A DNA stretch of 56,230 nucleotides, taken from the NCBI GenBank assembly GCA_025352375.1, contig JANXTL010000066.1:1-56230 (forward strand). The letters run 5' to 3'. Below the pieces are notes generated by a model, which worked only from the letters and a program-made list of their open reading frames with translations, did no database searches and had not been told where the DNA came from. The position numbers and the translations under genes are program-made. Source of the DNA: Acetobacteraceae bacterium. Its GTDB lineage: Bacteria; Pseudomonadota; Alphaproteobacteria; Acetobacterales; Acetobacteraceae. Position 1 is the stretch's first letter. Every line of letters begins with the position of its first letter. Positions 5,120-13,658 of the stretch are shown here, one piece after another.

Positions 5120-5196
5120 TGGTCGGGGCGGCGGGACTCGAACCCACGACCTCCTGTACCCAAAACAGGCGCGCTACCAGGCTGCGCCACGCCCCG
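5120..5196 (-). tRNA. tRNA-Pro (anticodon UGG)
   Basis: Reading the minus strand, CGGGGCG pairs with CGCCCCG to give a 7-bp acceptor stem, followed by discriminator A and an encoded CCA. The D arm contains AGCCTGGTAGCGC. The anticodon stem CCTGT/ACAGG closes the loop TTTGGGT with anticodon TGG, and the T arm has the invariant GGTTCGAGTCC. Total 77 nt. The 3' end of tRNA genes is a frequent integration target, but no attachment duplicate or integrase is seen near it. Confidence 0.97.
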
Positions 5197-5404: not shown

Positions 5405-5896
5405 ATGACCGAGGATAGAACATCGTCGGTGGAGGATCCGGACAACACGGTGCCCTCAAGCGCGAGATGGCTTGGCGGGCTCGGTGTTGCCCCGTTCATA
5501 TGCTTGGCTGGTGCGGCTCCTCTCCTCGGAGGCTCAACGAGGACACTCGTTGCTCATGCCCTGGTGGCCTATGGTGCTACCATCCTGTCATTTCTGGGTG
5601 GCGTGCATTGGGGGTTGGCAATCGGACCGCAACGCGTCGCACACAGCGGAAAGCTCCCGGGCAGGCTGATTGTTAGCGTTATTCCGTCATTGGCGGGTTG
5701 GACAGCGCTTCTGGTCGCGGAATCAACTGGATTGCTCGTCCTGGCCGCAGCCGTCGCCGCGATGCTTTGGGTCGATCTTCGCGCGACCCGGCTGGGCCAG
5801 GCCCCGCCGTGGTACCCGAAGCTGCGTAGACCCTTAACCTTTGCGGTAGTTGCCGCCCTGCTGTCTGGCGCGATGGCATTAATAACCCCGGCCTAG
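5405..5896 (+). CDS. DUF3429 integral membrane protein
   Basis: A 163-residue membrane protein with five hydrophobic segments. The DUF3429 signature is seen in ARWLGGLGVAPFICLAGAAP, then AYGATILSFLGGVHWGLA, and a late LRATRLGQAPPWYPKLR that separates the last two helices. The ATG at 5405 is preferred over an in-frame GTG two codons earlier because it aligns with the family start and has GGCAGG upstream. Function is unknown. It converges on the photolyase gene with 176 bp between them. DUF3429 genes are, from my memory, often neighbours of photolyase/cryptochrome genes in marine and photosynthetic bacteria, so it may belong to the light locus. Confidence 0.8.
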   Translation: MTEDRTSSVEDPDNTVPSSARWLGGLGVAPFICLAGAAPLLGGSTRTLVAHALVAYGATILSFLGGVHWGLAIGPQRVAHSGKLPGRLIVSVIPSLAGWTALLVAESTGLLVLAAAVAAMLWVDLRATRLGQAPPWYPKLRRPLTFAVVAALLSGAMALITPA

Positions 5897-6072
5897 GGCC
5901 AGTGACTGGGTCGAACCGAACGGTAGGATATAAAATGAAGATGCTTCCCTACCGGGCCACGACCAGCGGCGCTGAAGGCAACTGCCGACGTTTCGCGCGA
6001 ACGTCCGCGACGGGGCATGCTTAGCCATATCATTGCAGAATTGATAATAACGCGCAACCGCGCCTCACCCGA

Positions 6073-7626
6073 TCATCGGCTATCTTCGGAGAACCGATCA
6101 TTTTCATCCAGCTTATCGAGAAAAGCGTCCGCCTCGGCGAGGATCGCCGTTTCGCGTTCGCGCGTCCAACCGGCAAGCGTTCGGTAAGACAACGCCAACC
6201 TTGGATTGCCCACAAGCTGCTCTTTCCGACGGATTAAAAAAGCCCAATAAAGATAGTTGAACGGACAAGCTTTCGGGCCCGATTGCTGTTTGACATTGTA
6301 AAAGCAACCGGAACAAAAATCCGACAAACGGTTGATATATGCGCCAGACGCCGCATAGGGTTTGGACGCCATTCGTCCCCCGTCCGCATAGACAGCCATA
6401 CCCAGAGTGTTGGGCATCTCGACCCATTCGAAGGCGTCGGCATAAACGGCGAGATACCAGCGCTCGATTTCGCGTGGCGCGACACCGGCCAGCAGCGCGA
6501 AATTCCCGGTCACCATCAGCCGCTGGATATGATGCGCGTAAGCATAGCGCGCCGTGGCGCCAATCGCTTCGCGAAGGCATCGCATATCGGTTTCGCCCGT
6601 CCAATAGAAAGCCGGCAGTCGCCGCGTCGCCCGCAGCGCATTGCAGTCCGCATAGTCAGGCATTAATGTCCAATAAACGCCCCGCACATATTCCCGCCAG
6701 CCCAGGATCTGACGCACGAACCCCTCGACAGCATTCAAGGGCGCATGACCCGAACGCCACGCGGCCTCGGCCGCCCGGCAAACCTCGCGAGGGGAAAGCA
6801 GCCCAAGGTTCAAAGACGGCGCCAGTAGCGAGTGGAACAGGAACGGCGCGCCAGACTTCATGGCGTCCTGGTAGTCGCCGAAGTCGGGCAGGCTATACAA
6901 TATGAAATCGTCCAGCCCGAGCAACGCGTCGGCCCGGGTCACCGGCCAGCCGAATGCCTCAAGCGCCCCAAAATGATGGGGGAAACTGCGCTCTACAAGC
7001 GCCATCGCCTCCCGTGTCGTCGCATCGGGCGGGAACCGGAGCCGCGCCGGCGGAACGGTCCGCGCCGGGAGCCGCTTTCGGTTCGCGGCATCGTAATTCC
7101 AGACGCCGCCCGCCGGCTGCTCCCCATCCATTAGAATTACATGCTCGCGCCGCATCTTCCGGTAGAAATGCTCCATACGCCAGGTGCGCCGTCCATGCGC
7201 CCAGTCAGCGAAACGGGCTCGGCTGGCAAAAAAACGGTTGTCGGGGCGCACCTCGACCGGCCGCCCCGTCAGAACGGACCAGGTCTCAACCATCTTTTGC
7301 ACACGCCACTCGCCGGGTTCGGTTAACACCAAGCGGTCGGGACGGTGCCTTTCCGCCGCTCGCTGGACCTCGCTGGTGAGCGCGCCAGTATTGCCCGAGG
7401 CATCGAGCGCTATATAGTCGACGGCAACACCGCGCAGGCGCAGTTCGTCCGCGAAGTGACGCATGGCCGACAGCACCAGAACGATCTTCTGTTTGTGGTG
7501 CGGGACGTAGGTGCCTTCTTCGGTCACCTCCATCATCAGAACCGTGTCGCATCCAGGGTCGAGGTCGGTCAGCGCGGAAAGATCGTGCGATAGCTGGTCA
7601 CCCAGAACGATTCTCAGGACGCTCAT
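6073..7626 (-). CDS. FeS-type (6-4) photolyase / bacterial cryptochrome (PhrB/CryB class)
   Basis: A 517-residue protein of the cryptochrome/photolyase-related class with an iron-sulfur cluster. The N-terminal alpha/beta domain starts [18 protein letters not shown]; the C-terminal FAD domain contains [15 protein letters not shown] and GNFALLAG. Four cysteines sit at 350 ([10 protein letters not shown]), 438, 441 (DFCSGCFYN) and 454 (ACPFNYLYW), exactly the positions known as cluster ligands in Agrobacterium PhrB. That family repairs (6-4) photoproducts or acts as a light sensor, with FAD and a ribityl-lumazine antenna; which one applies here is open. The ATG at 7626 overlaps the DUF2256 stop (ATGA), so I reject a longer start inside the DUF2256 frame. 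Last gene of the minus-strand light operon. Confidence 0.95.
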
Positions 7627-7799
7627 GTCTCGACCCTCCCCGGCATCGAAGCAACCGGCCCCAGAGCGTCCCGGCAGCGGCGGGAGCAATACTTCACACT
7701 TTCCCAGTCCCGCGCCCACTTCTTGCGCCATGCGAAGGTAAGGCCGCACGATGCACAGCGCTTGGTCGGCAATTCCGCTTTGCGGCGCATCCGGGGCAT
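7623..7799 (-). CDS. DUF2256 zinc-ribbon-like small protein
   Basis: A 58-residue protein. It has two cysteine pairs, Cys15-x-x-Cys18 (RCASCGLTF) and Cys38-x3-Cys42 (YCSRRCR), separated by the conserved [10 protein letters not shown], which is the DUF2256 pattern and suggests one zinc site. Families annotated this way lie almost always next to cryptochrome/photolyase genes, as here: its TGA overlaps the photolyase ATG, and its start is 4 bp after the stop of the SDR gene. Translational coupling to the photolyase is therefore likely. Possible roles are a chaperone for the iron-sulfur or flavin enzyme, or a nucleic-acid contact; neither is shown. Confidence 0.88.
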
Positions 7800-7803
7800 G
7801 GCG

Positions 7804-8505
7804 TTACCAGGGCACCGGCTTGCCGCGCCAGTCGAAAAAGCCGCCGGTCGCTTCAGCCGTCAGGCCATCGACGACGGCGAGCAAATGGCCCGCTGCCTCT
7901 GCGGGCGTATGGACCTCGAACCCAGTCGCCGCGAATGGGGCGGATAGCGGTGTGGCGACCGTGCCAGGATGCAGCGCGATACAAAGCGCTTCGGGCGCCC
8001 GCCGAGCCAGTTCCACAGCCGCGGTCCGCACCAGTTGGTTGAGGGCCGCCTTCGACGCCCGATACGCATACCAGCCGCCGAGCCGGTTATCGCCGATACT
8101 GCCAACCCTGGCAGACAGCGTCACGAAAACAGCCTTGCCCGAACGCGGCAGAAGCGGCAGCACATGTTTCATGATCAACGCCGGTCCAATGGCGTTCAAG
8201 GCGAAAGCGCGCGCGAGCCTGCCCGCATCGAGCTGACGCCAGCTTTTCTCCGGCGGCTGGTGGTCATCGTGGAGGAAGCCTGTCGCGTCGATTACGAGCC
8301 GAACTTCACAATGTGTTGCAACGAACGACGCCGCGCGTTCCAAACTTGCCTCATCGAGCAGATCGATCGGAGGCGAACTCCCGCGGCTGAAGCCGATCGT
8401 GTGCTCGAAGCAAAGCGTGGCACACAATGCTTCCAACAAAGCGCTTCCGATGCCCCCGCCGGCACCGAAAACGACCGCGACGCTGGGCCGAGGAAAGGAC
8501 TTCAT
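7804..8505 (-). CDS. short-chain dehydrogenase/reductase in the photolyase operon
   Basis: A 233-residue SDR. The dinucleotide-binding motif is [13 protein letters not shown] (residues 11-23). Catalytic residues are in [14 protein letters not shown] (Ser) and [14 protein letters not shown] (Tyr-x3-Lys), followed by [12 protein letters not shown]. The ATG at 8505 was chosen over a longer open frame because it begins directly at the Rossmann fold. It is 4 bp from DUF2256 and 34 bp after the DCC gene, all on the minus strand. SDRs of this CsgA-like type recur in photolyase clusters. A pterin or carotenoid-related reduction would fit the presence of folE, but the substrate is not deducible. Confidence 0.9.
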
Positions 8506-8539
8506 GCCGATGCCTGCATCGACGGCGAAAAAACCTCGA

Positions 8540-8950
8540 TCACCGGTGTTGGGCCTGATCGATGCGCCCACGAAGTCTTTGCAGTTCGCCGAAAAGCCGA
8601 GAGATGAACGGCCGGATCGGTAAAAAAAGACGGTAGCCAGCCTCCAACGCGCCGATTGCTCCCGGCAGCGCCGCGGCGCGGGCCGCCCAGCGCCATCCTG
8701 GCAATCGGCTCCACACTTCGGCGAACGCCGCCGCTCCCGACAGCAGTTGTCCTTCGGTGTCGCGCACATGAAACCGTCCCATGGCCTGCGGGCGGGTCAA
8801 GCCGTCCGGAAGACACGTATCTGTTGCCGAGACATCGACGAAACACAGCGCCCCTGCGCGATCCGAAGCGCGATAATGCGCGATCTCCGCTCGGCACAAA
8901 GGACAGGCGCCATCGAAATATACGGCCGATTTCGGGGTTTCGGTCTGCAC
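8540..8950 (-). CDS. DCC-family thiol-disulfide oxidoreductase-like protein (DUF393)
   Basis: A 136-residue protein with the DUF393 motif VYFDGACPLCRAEIAHYR near the N-terminus (Cys-x-x-Cys after an Asp-Gly), and a hydrophobic C-terminal part, AGYRLFLPIRPFISRLF. The family is thioredoxin-like and named for its DxxCxxC motif; redox function is inferred. The start is a GTG at 8950, supported by AGGAG six bases upstream. It is the first gene of the DCC-SDR-DUF2256-photolyase run; 129 bp separate it from the BLUF gene, so it may have its own promoter in addition to read-through from folE. Confidence 0.88.
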   Translation of the reverse strand: MQTETPKSAVYFDGACPLCRAEIAHYRASDRAGALCFVDVSATDTCLPDGLTRPQAMGRFHVRDTEGQLLSGAAAFAEVWSRLPGWRWAARAAALPGAIGALEAGYRLFLPIRPFISRLFGELQRLRGRIDQAQHR

Positions 8951-9079
8951 GCGGAACTCCTGGAACGCAGAAACTCAATGGATCGACACGGAAGGCTTAC
9001 TTATTGTGCCGGACGGGTACTTGGCGGGTTCTCTCCAATCCGATGCCGTTGCAGGCTTCGCCCTTGGCGTGATCGGAGG

Positions 9080-9508
9080 CTATTTGCTACGGCTGGAAAT
9101 AGACCCCGTGGCAACGAGGTCGTCGAGCAGGGCCATGGTGGCCCGCCCCGAACAGCCGAACGGGTTCAACTCGGCTTTTTCAGAATGCTTGAGAATCAGA
9201 GCCCTGTTTATGTTGTCGATATCCACCTGTCCCATCGTCCAATTGCCGAATCGCCGTTGGGCGATTTCTTCGAAGGCCAGAAGCCGAATGTCGCGGTGAC
9301 GGCTATCGCGTGAAATGGCCATGAAGAGTTCGTTCACTTCGTCGCGGCCTCCCTCGATAATTTGGACGAAAACATCGTTGGTGAGGCACAGCAAGCCGGT
9401 TATCCCGACTTTCGGATTGTTTTTGCTGGATTGCTCCAGAATCGAATCCAGAAGGCCTGAGGTCAGCGGTTGCGCCGAGCGGCTGGCGTAAAGACAATGA
9501 ACGAGCAT
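9080..9508 (-). CDS. BLUF-domain blue-light photoreceptor (short form)
   Basis: A 142-residue protein that is essentially one BLUF domain, which binds FAD non-covalently and reports blue light through a hydrogen-bond switch. The key residues are present: Tyr7 (HCLYASRSAQ), Asn31 before VGITGLL, Gln49 (FVQIIEG), and Trp90/Met92 in FGNWTMG. About 45 residues after the core form the C-terminal cap; there is no EAL, GGDEF or HTH domain, so it must signal by protein-protein contact. The gene starts 7 bp after the stop of folE and is therefore very likely co-transcribed with it. The partner is unknown; the nearby photolyase operon is the obvious candidate context. Confidence 0.93.
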   Translation of the reverse strand: MLVHCLYASRSAQPLTSGLLDSILEQSSKNNPKVGITGLLCLTNDVFVQIIEGGRDEVNELFMAISRDSRHRDIRLLAFEEIAQRRFGNWTMGQVDIDNINRALILKHSEKAELNPFGCSGRATMALLDDLVATGSISSRSK

Positions 9509-9515
9509 CGGAACC

Positions 9516-10235
9516 TCAGGTGTTCGGTTTGATGAGGGACAGGAATTCGCGACGGAGGGCTGAGTCCTTAAGAAAGGATCCTCGCATGACGCTGTTCGTC
9601 ATTTTCGCGGCCGTATCTTTGACACCGCGCCAGTGCATGCAAAAGTGGTTTGCTTCCATGACAACTGCCAGCCCGTCGGGTTTGACCCGCTTCATGAGCA
9701 AGTCCGCCATCTGCACGATCGCTTCTTCCTGAATTTGGGGCCGGGTCATGATCCACTCGGCGAGCCGCGCATATTTCGATAGCCCGATCAAATTCGAATG
9801 CTGATTCGGCATCACGCCAACCCAAATTCGTCCTGTAATAGGGCAAAGGTGATGACTACATGCGCTTCGCACGGTGATCGGGCCGACGATCATAAGCTCG
9901 TTGAGACTTGCCGCATTCGGGAACTCGGTAATCGGCGGCGTTGGCACGTAACGCCCGCGAAATACCTCGTTCAGATACATTTTGGCGACGCGGCGTGCGG
10001 TGTCATGGGTGTTGTGGTCATGTTCGATATCGATCACAAGACTCTCGAGCACCGCCGTCATCTTACCGGCGACTTCATTCAAAAGCCCGTCCATTTCCGC
10101 GGGCTCGATAAACGCGGAGATGTTGTCATTGGCAAAAAATCTTTGCTTCGCACGCAGCAATCGTGCGCGAATGCGTCGCGAAACCGGCAGGTTGGGGTCG
10201 TCGTCAGCATTATCCGTATGATCGTCCATCGTCAT
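9516..10235 (-). CDS. folE: GTP cyclohydrolase I
   Basis: A 239-residue FolE that would convert GTP to dihydroneopterin triphosphate, the entry to folates and other pterins. Zinc ligands are recognisable as Cys126 and His129 (SACSHHLCPITG) and Cys199 (NHFCMHWRGV). The residue after the first zinc cysteine is Ser127, where the classical enzyme has Glu in CEHH. The N-terminal 40 residues are acidic and variable. Two in-frame ATGs lie at 10235 and 10229. It heads the light locus, 7 bp before the BLUF gene, and an RpoE-like promoter is seen at 10259-10286. In photolyase clusters an extra folE is thought to boost pterin/folate for antenna cofactors; the genome may carry another copy for housekeeping. 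Confidence 0.92.
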   Translation of the reverse strand: MTMDDHTDNADDDPNLPVSRRIRARLLRAKQRFFANDNISAFIEPAEMDGLLNEVAGKMTAVLESLVIDIEHDHNTHDTARRVAKMYLNEVFRGRYVPTPPITEFPNAASLNELMIVGPITVRSACSHHLCPITGRIWVGVMPNQHSNLIGLSKYARLAEWIMTRPQIQEEAIVQMADLLMKRVKPDGLAVVMEANHFCMHWRGVKDTAAKMTNSVMRGSFLKDSALRREFLSLIKPNT

Positions 10236-10258
10236 TCTCTGTTGTTCGAGCGGAAGAC

Positions 10259-10286
10259 CATACGAGCGCGATTGCCGCCTGGATCA
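10259..10286 (-). promoter_or_regulatory. RpoE (singlet-oxygen ECF sigma)-like promoter before folE
   Basis: On the minus strand TGATCC (10286-10281) is followed after exactly 18 bases by TATG (10262-10259). The Rhodobacter RpoE consensus is TGATCC-N18-TAAG, so the -35 is perfect and the -10 has one mismatch. Transcription would start around 10252, about 17 nt before the folE ATG at 10235. Binding is inferred. Confidence 0.45.
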
Positions 10287-12240: not shown

Positions 12241-13005
12241 CTATCGAAATACTTCGACTCCGCCCCAAACGATAAGCGCAATGCCCGTCAGCCGGCTTAC
12301 GCGCGGCCCTACTGGAAGCAGCTTCTCGATCAAGACCAGCAACGCGAGAGCGGCGATCCAGAGCAAGTTCATCAAGCCGCCGACGAACAGGAGCACCATC
12401 AACAACCAGCAGCATCCAAGACAGAACAACCCGTGCATAGCGCCGGCTCGGAGCGGTCCGAACCTGCCCTGGCGCCAAAATCGGCCCAGTTGCTCTGTCG
12501 GTGAGCGGCACTGCACAAGACAGGCCTGTTTCCACGGTGTCCATTGATAGATGCCCGCGACGATCAGCATCACACCCGCCAGCTTGGTGCTGGCACTGGC
12601 CATGTCCGCCGACAGCAATTCGGCCCGGTCGAGGCCGAATTGGAGGATTGTAGCGGCCAGGCTGAAGCCGAACCAGATCAGCAGGTAGCCCATGACAAAG
12701 AGCCCAATCGGGCCAAACAGCCGGTTGCCTCCGCGCTTGCTCATCAGCGCGACCGCCAGCAGGATGGCCGGGGCGGCGCTGGGAAGCATCATCGCCATCA
12801 TCATGATGGCCCACATTAGGAAGATCACTACGGCGTAGCCGGCGGACCACGCGGGCGCCATCAGCATGATCTGACCGCCGCCCATGTCCATTTGCCCCAT
12901 CTCGATGCCTGCGCCGAGAAACAGCCAGCCCCATGAGAGCAGGATCACCGTGAGCAAACCGGTCAGCGCGACCAAGCGCTCGCGCCGGAGAAGGGCCCGC
13001 AGCAT
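12241..13005 (-). CDS. DUF2182 membrane protein
   Basis: A 254-residue protein with about seven hydrophobic helices. The family hallmarks are the Met-rich helix FLMWAIMMMAMMLPSAAP (about residues 62-79), YLLIWFGFSLAA, YQWTPWKQACLVQCR and GLFCLGCCWLLM. Methionine, cysteine and histidine residues inside or near the membrane suggest metal handling; DUF2182 has been described as a predicted metal-binding membrane protein. It starts 14 bp after the DUF1326 gene on the same strand, and the pair DUF1326-DUF2182 recurs in many proteobacteria, so a joint function is likely. Substrate unknown. Confidence 0.88.
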   Translation of the reverse strand: MLRALLRRERLVALTGLLTVILLSWGWLFLGAGIEMGQMDMGGGQIMLMAPAWSAGYAVVIFLMWAIMMMAMMLPSAAPAILLAVALMSKRGGNRLFGPIGLFVMGYLLIWFGFSLAATILQFGLDRAELLSADMASASTKLAGVMLIVAGIYQWTPWKQACLVQCRSPTEQLGRFWRQGRFGPLRAGAMHGLFCLGCCWLLMVLLFVGGLMNLLWIAALALLVLIEKLLPVGPRVSRLTGIALIVWGGVEVFR

Positions 13006-13019
13006 GGGCGGGGCGGCGG

Positions 13020-13658
13020 CTAGTTCATGCGCCCCTTGTGGCTGAGATGGATATGGGCGAACTGGCCGTAGGTCCCCGCCAGGTCCAACGCGATCGGTCC
13101 GGCGGTCTTGCTGGTGCCACTGCCAATCTCGGCCTGCTTGAACTCGAAGCTCTGTGGGAAGTCGATGCGGACGCGATGCTCCGCGCCGGTCACCGGGTTG
13201 CGAATCGGCTCGCCCACAGAGGTGGCAACGCCCGGGATATCGAGCCGCGCCCGGCGTGCCTCAACATCGACGTCGAGAGTGATCGGATGGAAGGCCGGCG
13301 GATGCTTGGTCGGGCTCATTGTGCCGAATATCCACCATACCGTGGCCATGTCTTCGGTCTCCTGCCCGGACAGTATCTTGATCAGCGCGTCCCGCTGCGC
13401 GGCATCGGCCCGTTCATCGATGATGAGTTGCATACTGCCGTTGCCTTCGTGCACCGCACCCGGCCAGCGCCACATCGCGGCTGCCCTCAACCCATCGAGG
13501 CGGACATCGCCGAAGTGTCCGGCGTCGATCTGGTAGCCTGCTACCGCCTCACAAAAGCCCTTGTCGGGAAGTGCGTTGAATTGGCAGGGGCAGGCATAGA
13601 TGCAGTTGCAGTTGGTAAATTCGGTTGCCTTGATTTCCCATTCGATTGAGACAGTCAT
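13020..13658 (-). CDS. DUF1326 cysteine-rich protein
   Basis: A 212-residue cytoplasmic protein without signal peptide. Four cysteines close to the N-terminus, Cys17, Cys19, Cys23 and Cys25 in TNCNCIYACPCQFNALP, plus Cys36, form the hallmark of DUF1326 and would suit soft-metal binding. The rest is a beta-rich domain with RIDFPQSFEFKQAEIGSGTS. The ATG at 13658 has a strong GGGAGGA site. It is followed by the DUF2182 membrane protein, with which it likely works. No characterised reaction is known to me. Confidence 0.88.
   Translation of the reverse strand: MTVSIEWEIKATEFTNCNCIYACPCQFNALPDKGFCEAVAGYQIDAGHFGDVRLDGLRAAAMWRWPGAVHEGNGSMQLIIDERADAAQRDALIKILSGQETEDMATVWWIFGTMSPTKHPPAFHPITLDVDVEARRARLDIPGVATSVGEPIRNPVTGAEHRVRIDFPQSFEFKQAEIGSGTSKTAGPIALDLAGTYGQFAHIHLSHKGRMN

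Follow-up and report, generated by a model that had tools for sequence, protein, structure and literature searches.

A conserved gene pair of a BLUF photoreceptor and a divergent GTP cyclohydrolase I: a candidate light-gated pterin module

The window—the whole 56,230-nt stretch of Acetobacteraceae DNA that was analysed—carries a gene for a short BLUF photoreceptor directly behind folE-L, the gene of a second, divergent GTP cyclohydrolase I (GCH I), and BLUFs of this clade occur almost exclusively in that position. The pair may well form a dedicated two-gene, light-gated pterin module in which BLUF regulates FolE-L and stress sets the amount, a reading that is held tentatively. The pair was not found described in the part of the literature on BLUF with GTP cyclohydrolase, folE or folate biosynthesis that was covered, bioRxiv and most subscription journals being outside the scope.

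Locus architecture and the two proteins of the pair

All seven genes of the block at 5405–10286 (Table 1) were confirmed with exact starts and stops and with Pfam matches above cut-off; their identities and positions are those of the original prediction, including the DUF3429 gene converging on the photolyase gene. The intergenic gaps amount to 7 nt for folE-L–BLUF, 129 nt for BLUF–DCC, 34 nt for DCC–SDR, and 4 nt for SDR–DUF2256. The gaps of 7, 34, and 4 nt had been given correctly, whereas the overlap of DUF2256 and photolyase, given as 3 nt, is one of 4 nt (ATGA). The block is made up of two modules: folE-L–BLUF and DCC–SDR–DUF2256–FeS photolyase. Third-position GC is lowered in all seven genes, at 0.64–0.78 compared with 0.80 ± 0.05 in 36 background frames, a contrast that is overstated because these frames were chosen by a rule favouring high third-position GC.

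Table 1. Features of the locus (positions in the window)
Feature	Position	Strand	Remarks
DUF3429 membrane protein	5405..5896	+	PF11911; convergent with photolyase
FeS-BCP/CryPro-type (6-4) photolyase	6073..7626	-	PF04244 (DPRP); E 8.4e-186 to 9hnk, 1.9e-174 to PhrB 4dja
DUF2256, small zinc-ribbon-like protein	7623..7799	-	PF10013
Short-chain dehydrogenase/reductase (SDR)	7804..8505	-	PF00106/PF13561
DCC1-like thiol-disulfide oxidoreductase	8540..8950	-	PF04134; GTG start; opens second run
Short PixD-like BLUF photoreceptor	9080..9508	-	PF04940, 102.6 bits; 7 nt 3' of folE
folE-L, divergent GTP cyclohydrolase I	9516..10235	-	PF01227, 146.6 bits; catalytic residues conserved
RpoE (sigma-E)-type promoter box TGATCC-N16-CGTA	10261..10286	-	25 nt before folE

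FolE-L exceeds the PF01227 cut-off of 27 bits by far. In alignment with the E. coli enzyme, it conserves C126, H128, H129, H197, and C199—which we take to be the zinc and catalytic residues. A canonical folE lies elsewhere in the genome (contig C155) and scores 252 bits compared with 146.6 for the window copy, which bears out the prediction of an extra folE. FolE-L differs from five canonical FolEs at 74 conserved positions and occupies a separate branch in the tree; judged by its sequence, it is a divergent paralogue and not a member of the canonical subfamily. It would make dihydroneopterin triphosphate alongside the housekeeping enzyme. A natural GCH II–FolE fusion is carried by two relatives.

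The BLUF protein (PF04940 cut-off of 25 bits) is the only one found in this genome. Its residues Y7, N31, Q49, W90, and M92 are invariant across 58 BLUF sequences, and the photochemical Tyr, Gln, and Met/Trp are all present (Y7, Q49, W90, and M92). The folE-adjacent BLUFs form one side of a branch with an SH-aLRT of 99. The closest solved BLUF is PixD, with residues 4–131 of the window protein aligning with PixD 8–139, a similarity that runs on past the BLUF domain through the C-terminal part. A Pfam search of the window BLUF matched only PF04940 and, below cut-off, TEX47, with GFRP absent from the matches. A reversed relationship, in which FolE-L serves BLUF by supplying a pterin product bound as ligand or second chromophore, would go with the fixed gene order and the near-exclusive pairing. 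However, the known BLUF flavin-site residues, which include Tyr, Gln, and Met (PMC8508746, excerpt), are invariant here and fit FAD alone, making this reading highly improbable.

Conservation of the pair across genomes

The neighbourhood counts rest on homology searches, which were preferred over greedy ORF clustering because antisense frames spoiled the latter. BLUF lies directly downstream in 78 of 80 loci retrieved by FolE alone, and the median gap between the two genes is 7 nt (90 rows). Of 337 alphaproteobacterial genomes, counting the own one, FolE-L and the clade BLUF occur in an identical set of five, adjacent in 5/5; in the 145 near genomes—again with the own genome—six FolE-L copies occur in five genomes, each with BLUF (6/6). 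Among 200 Burkholderiales, 29 of 41 FolE-L and 29 of 30 clade BLUFs stand adjacent. FolE and BLUF distances correlate over 83 pairs with r 0.76, the permutation maximum being 0.118. The pair stays constant while neighbours and promoter box vary among loci. Conservation of the adjacency in relatives, on which the original prediction had staked its own refutation, is thus borne out—one-to-one in the Alphaproteobacteria—and the folE-BLUF neighbourhood is more than a chance one. Since folE and BLUF stand side by side almost without exception, even where the bacteria are only distantly related, FolE-L may be switched on or off by light.

The clade BLUF is absent for 11 of the 41 Burkholderiales FolE-L, and in one genome of this order (G449) the two genes lie on separate contigs, so FolE-L can manage without BLUF. 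One in-frame stop codon was flagged in 3 of the 30 Burkholderiales BLUFs (G466, G553, and G590). A marked patch of BLUF-specific residues on FolE-L was rejected, as only nine sequence positions show conservation alongside BLUF and relaxation in its absence.

Conserved adjacency could also come from co-transcription alone. FolE-L and BLUF would then share a transcript of a light or singlet-oxygen regulon, and the target of BLUF would be some other protein, for instance a regulator encoded elsewhere, rather than FolE-L, an account that is a serious possibility albeit not a probable one. It draws on the known presence of a GTP cyclohydrolase in light regulons: FolE2 is part of the RpoE regulon in Rhodobacter (PMC7074977, excerpt), folM-folE-folX stands under LitR-LOV in Pseudomonas mendocina (PMC9758184, excerpt), and on Burkholderia and Caballeronia plasmids FolE-L lacks BLUF but has MerR, ECF sigma, and further light genes next to it. 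However, a BLUF acting elsewhere should stand apart from folE more often than 1 in 30 (Burkholderiales) or 0 in 5 (Alphaproteobacteria), and what changes between loci is the promoter box and the rest of the neighbourhood.

Transcription and the second module

The genome features an ECF sigma factor (Sigma70_r2/r4) beside a ChrR-type anti-sigma factor (Cupin_7 with zf-HC2) on contig C301, and both promoters of this rpoE-chrR locus carry the same box with the same spacing as folE-L. The box TGATCC-N16-CGTA is matched exactly only once in the window, where 0.12 matches are expected and 11 of 100 shuffles contain at least one, and its score upstream of folE is reached by 5 of 3000 random 200-nt segments. 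Genome-wide, 15 matches were obtained compared with 2 for the reversed control. Within the seven-gene block, the box occurs only before folE. As judged by these sequences, folE-BLUF in this genome is probably transcribed by RpoE. The statement that ChrR is missing holds within the window and fails for the genome, as does the argument that BLUF may be the light input for want of ChrR.

This control is at best local because few other folE-BLUF pairs are preceded by the sigma-E box: In 88 upstream regions, which exclude the window itself, the loose form occurs in 3 and the strict form in 2, compared with 1.7% and 0.31% for segments drawn at random from these loci. The box was accordingly rejected as a general feature of the pair, and word counts in the upstream regions yielded no nameable shared motif. 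LitR control in this genome was rejected as well. The Burkholderia light-cluster MerR protein, which we take to be LitR, found no match at 1e-8 in the genome (98% complete), and the sole MerR_1 match sits in a 196-aa frame.

The closest solved chains to the photolyase are 9hnk, PhrB 4dja, CryB 3zxs, and 7ykn. Four cysteines, presumably the FeS ligands, coincide when it is aligned with 9hnk, and its closeness to solved FeS-BCP/CryPro-type enzymes supports the prediction of an FeS photolyase. Among solved chains, the SDR comes nearest to carbonyl reductases of the sniffer type and others, and its designation as a proven pterin reductase was rejected.

The original prediction had tentatively joined both modules into one photodamage locus, a model in which BLUF would control all seven genes and FolE would supply the photolyase antenna. 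Similar groupings exist in a few relatives: L067 and L088 have folE-BLUF followed by DCC-SDR—with DUF2256 in addition in L067—and L065 has folE-BLUF-SDR-class I photolyase-DCC. The lowered third-position GC common to the seven genes, overstated as it is, points the same way. However, the genes form two runs separated by the 129-nt gap, with the box only at folE, and two genomes (G031 and G012) have the SDR-DUF2256-photolyase run and folE-BLUF on different contigs. In the 89 FolE-L loci surveyed—three of them repeating the same contigs and 87 with BLUF—SDR was found nearby in 12, DCC in 7, DUF2256 in 5, and a piece of FeS photolyase in 1, which leaves most loci with none of these neighbours found and does not support one joint photodamage locus. 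The pathway is likewise unfavourable: lumazine derives from GCH II and not from GCH I, and a lumazine antenna is not supported, even with the GCH II–FolE fusion of two relatives. A single seven-gene photodamage system was rejected on these grounds, and the joint model as a whole is very improbable.

Proposed mechanism and known systems

In the two-gene module, BLUF would be a photosensory regulator of FolE-L that acts by contact; we infer that it most likely binds FolE-L. Output control through protein contact, which the original prediction had suggested, is thereby kept as the leading idea. GCH I is a D5 decamer. Because the BLUF and GCH I families both build five-fold rings, BLUF could parallel GFRP and set FolE-L activity as its blue-light counterpart. 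By this analogy, a ring of BLUFs might cap the FolE ring, with blue light switching pterin synthesis; such a photoreceptor analogue of GFRP is a serious possibility, though less likely than not. Since the RpoE that ChrR would free under singlet oxygen probably transcribes folE-BLUF, photo-oxidative stress would determine how much is made, and blue light how active it is. Under light stress, this additional pterin may equip photolyase antennae with folate or reduced pterin, replace photodegraded folate, or act in quenching.

No effector is known for many of the short BLUF proteins. Here, a whole clade is accompanied by a single candidate partner, and this enzyme is simple to assay; what this BLUF acts on can therefore be tested directly, and two small soluble proteins suffice. 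Should the contact prove real, nature would have placed the committed step of pterin and folate synthesis under a light switch—a ready optogenetic part—and this would help to explain why a second folE is kept in light-stress regulons. The direct effector of a BLUF protein would then be a primary-metabolism enzyme on a separate chain.

The FolE2 of Rhodobacter belongs to a different enzyme family from FolE. The RpoE-ChrR regulon of this genus resembles the present system in its ECF sigma and ChrR-type anti-sigma factor and contains a GTP cyclohydrolase, with the word BLUF absent from the text of the paper (PMC7074977, excerpt). The folM-folE-folX system of Pseudomonas mendocina likewise unites a blue-light receptor and folE in one light response; however, LOV acts there on a MerR-type transcription regulator (PMC9758184, excerpt), whereas here BLUF pairs with folE itself and LitR was not found. 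PixD of Synechocystis is, like the window BLUF, short and free of a fused output domain; it assembles as two stacked pentamers and signals via a separate protein (PMC5899715, excerpt). Its partner PixE is response-regulator-like, whereas the candidate partner here is the metabolic enzyme FolE, with BLUF encoded directly behind. In animals, pentamers of GFRP, the small partner protein of GCH1, cap the GCH1 decamer (PMC7750480, excerpt), and the same ring-on-ring geometry would be possible for BLUF and FolE-L, provided that they touch. The proposed likeness is one of action only, as BLUF has no GFRP Pfam match, and in contrast to the inputs BH4 and phenylalanine of GFRP, the input here would be light.

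The seven-gene block and its proteins

All genes of the proposed blue-light and photodamage locus are present in the window, each with a Pfam match. The gene layout needs a sole correction: the exact starts and stops give a DUF2256–photolyase overlap of 4 nt instead of 3 nt.

Genes of the block in the window
Gene	Position	Strand	Evidence
folE (FolE-L)	9516-10235	minus	Pfam
BLUF	9080-9508	minus	Pfam
DCC	8540-8950	minus	Pfam
SDR	7804-8505	minus	Pfam
DUF2256	7623-7799	minus	Pfam
photolyase	6073-7626	minus	Pfam
DUF3429	5405-5896	plus, convergent	Pfam

The canonical folE of the genome that contains the window (5.1 Mb, 98% complete) lies on contig C155 and scores 252 bits; the window's folE (146.6 bits) is the second of two in the genome and thus indeed an extra one. 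The only BLUF match in the genome search is that of the window. The divergent GTP cyclohydrolase I (GCH I) of the window and its close relatives, FolE-L, retain the residues at the positions where E. coli GCH I has its zinc-site and catalytic residues. Compared with five canonical FolEs, 74 positions differ, for example, with CSHH in place of CEHH. In the BLUF protein, Y7, N31, Q49, W90, M92, and, in the tail, P116 are invariant (58 of 84 sequences aligned), and among solved structures it is closest to PixD proteins, with similarity over residues 4-131. The photolyase is of the FeS-BCP type as judged by comparison with solved structures. The third-position GC of the seven genes is 0.64 to 0.78 (six at or below 0.72), compared with 0.80 ± 0.05 in 36 neighbors chosen by a rule favoring high GC3; the lowered value over 5405-10235 hints at horizontal arrival—a pointer weaker than it appears because of this biased background. 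A tRNA-Pro gene lies near the block (5120-5196), and genes for a PpoB2 copper chaperone and a DUF1326 protein adjoin each other on the minus strand at 12241-13658.

Conservation and phylogeny of the folE–BLUF pair

The original observation holds, and BLUF as an operon mate of folE, its least familiar element, is the real finding. Species genomes were searched with the FolE protein alone, and among the best 80 of at least 586 confirmed stretches, 78 have a BLUF gene directly 3' of folE on the same strand; the exceptions are L079, which stops with the final base of folE, and the BLUF-less L120. The gap has a median of 7 nt (10th–90th percentile 2 to 11, range −1 to 45; 90 rows, some repeating one contig). 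By record title, most hosts are Beta- or Alphaproteobacteria; five are Gammaproteobacteria, and odd MAGs occur singly, several MAG titles looking unreliable. No description of the pair was found in the portions of the literature searched.

In a census not selected by the pair, 337 alphaproteobacterial genomes, including the window's own, were queried separately with FolE and BLUF. The FolE query returned five genomes at E 1e-45 (identity ≥72%), and the BLUF query the same five (E ≤1.3e-47, identity ≥52%), the other BLUFs listed (E up to 1e-12) having an identity of ≤39%; both genes are adjacent in all five. In 200 Burkholderiales genomes, FolE-L occurs in 41 and BLUF in 30 (E ≤2.1e-36, 44-61% over ≥139 residues, one stop codon flagged in frame in three of them). 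Adjacency to FolE-L holds for 29 of these 30, and 11 of the 41 FolE-L genes are without such a BLUF. In genome G449, folE and BLUF lie on different contigs (L170:7150-7293 and L171), and an open frame that starts 3' of folE is presumably a transposase. The 145 near genomes, including the window's own, contain six FolE-L copies in five genomes, each followed by BLUF, and nine other FolE copies (143-159 bits, L044 to L051, 37-52% identity to the window FolE) with no BLUF behind. On plasmids, the top four BLUF hits are all from Cupriavidus, and they adjoin the top four FolE hits.

In the BLUF tree, a single branch (SH-aLRT 99) parts 83 folE-adjacent BLUFs from 25 others. In the FolE tree, FolE-L stands apart from canonical FolE, and BLUF-less copies of Burkholderia, Caballeronia, and Roseibium lie beside BLUF-linked FolE-L. 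With more BLUF-less copies added (103 rows), BLUF presence requires seven changes on this tree, or five without L079 and L170; BLUF was therefore lost or gained several times. Across the 83 FolE–BLUF pairs, FolE and BLUF distances correlate with r 0.76, the maximum of 999 permutations being 0.118. Two loci of different classes by record title, L068 and L088, are nearest neighbors in both trees, which suggests transfer of their FolE and BLUF as one unit.

Surroundings and promoter of the pair

A neighborhood survey covered 89 FolE-L loci (three being second copies of the same contigs, some on short contigs), 87 of them with BLUF. Nearby genes encode SDR at 12 loci, DCC at 7, DUF2256 at 5, class I photolyase at 3, DUF3429 at 2, and a piece of FeS photolyase at 1; the constant part is the folE–BLUF pair. 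In genomes G031 and G012, the SDR–DUF2256–photolyase run occupies a contig other than that of the pair. At L065:2123-5960, a class I photolyase (PF00875, PF03441) comes after folE–BLUF–SDR, where the FeS enzyme would stand, and DCC comes next. Beside two BLUF-less FolE-L genes (L166:6311-7699, L169:5759-6846) lies an SDR homologue 62-69% identical to that of the window. On a Caballeronia plasmid, a BLUF-less FolE-L and a MerR regulator are encoded ~8 kb from an annotated photoactive yellow protein gene (L062:1-163).

A search of the window's own genome with the Burkholderia light-cluster MerR regulator found no LitR; the sole MerR_1 match sits in a 196-aa frame. On contig C301, adjoining genes for an ECF sigma factor and a ChrR-type anti-sigma factor border homologues of the FAD-oxidoreductase, DUF1365, and methyltransferase genes of that cluster, and both divergent promoters of this locus carry TGATCC-N16-CGTA. 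The window contains this string exactly once, 25 nt 5' of folE. Its occurrence somewhere in a sequence of this size is not unusual (at least one match in 11 of 100 shuffles); its position before folE is (5 of 3000 random 200-nt segments). Genome-wide, 15 matches compare with 2 for the reversed control; four lie ≤35 nt from the sigma, FAD-oxidoreductase, lipocalin, and folE genes, and for the other 11, no such gene link was seen. The lipocalin gene (L184, box 9 nt upstream) has a homologue in the Burkholderia light cluster. The region upstream of DCC in the window gave no comparable box, and the box is rare at other folE–BLUF loci; before folE, it may be read as a local addition to a pair that is itself portable.

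Another divergent class of folE (L046, L047 in two copies, L048-L051; 37-39% to FolE of the window) is followed in seven of eight copies by a gene for a PAS-GGDEF-EAL-type protein, with a small Oxidored_molyb-fold protein in between in the copies inspected (Pfam covered one EAL protein and two of the small ones). This arrangement resembles the pterin/c-di-GMP signaling pair PruR–DcpA of Agrobacterium.

Possible product use and BLUF–FolE contact

Folate and reduced pterins are made from dihydroneopterin triphosphate. Class I photolyases use an MTHF antenna, which folate might feed; newly made folate might also make up for losses to photodegradation. The antenna of FeS-BCP enzymes is lumazine, and the proposal that FolE helps to make it is not supported, as lumazine derives from GCH II. 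In two BLUF-less Burkholderiales genomes, GCH II is fused to FolE-L in one reading frame (L159:4449-6791, L168:4692-7061; the genome search had flagged one TGA in each). As far as the cited texts go, Pseudomonas mendocina has a light-responsive folM–folE–folX operon (PMC9758184), and the RpoE regulon of Rhodobacter includes FolE2 (PMC7074977).

Since FolE-L and BLUF are coupled in fixed order while neighbors and promoter vary, a protein-level link would be the simplest account. The BLUF-less 11 of 41 Burkholderiales FolE-L genes argue against a contact, as does the fact that adjacency by itself can reflect co-transcription. A geometrically attractive form of such a contact would be a BLUF ring on a FolE ring. 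PixD is reported to exist both as a double stack of pentamers and as dimers, the two being in equilibrium (PMC5899715), and human GCH1 to form a D5 decamer on which pentamers of GFRP sit as caps along the five-fold axis (PMC7750480).
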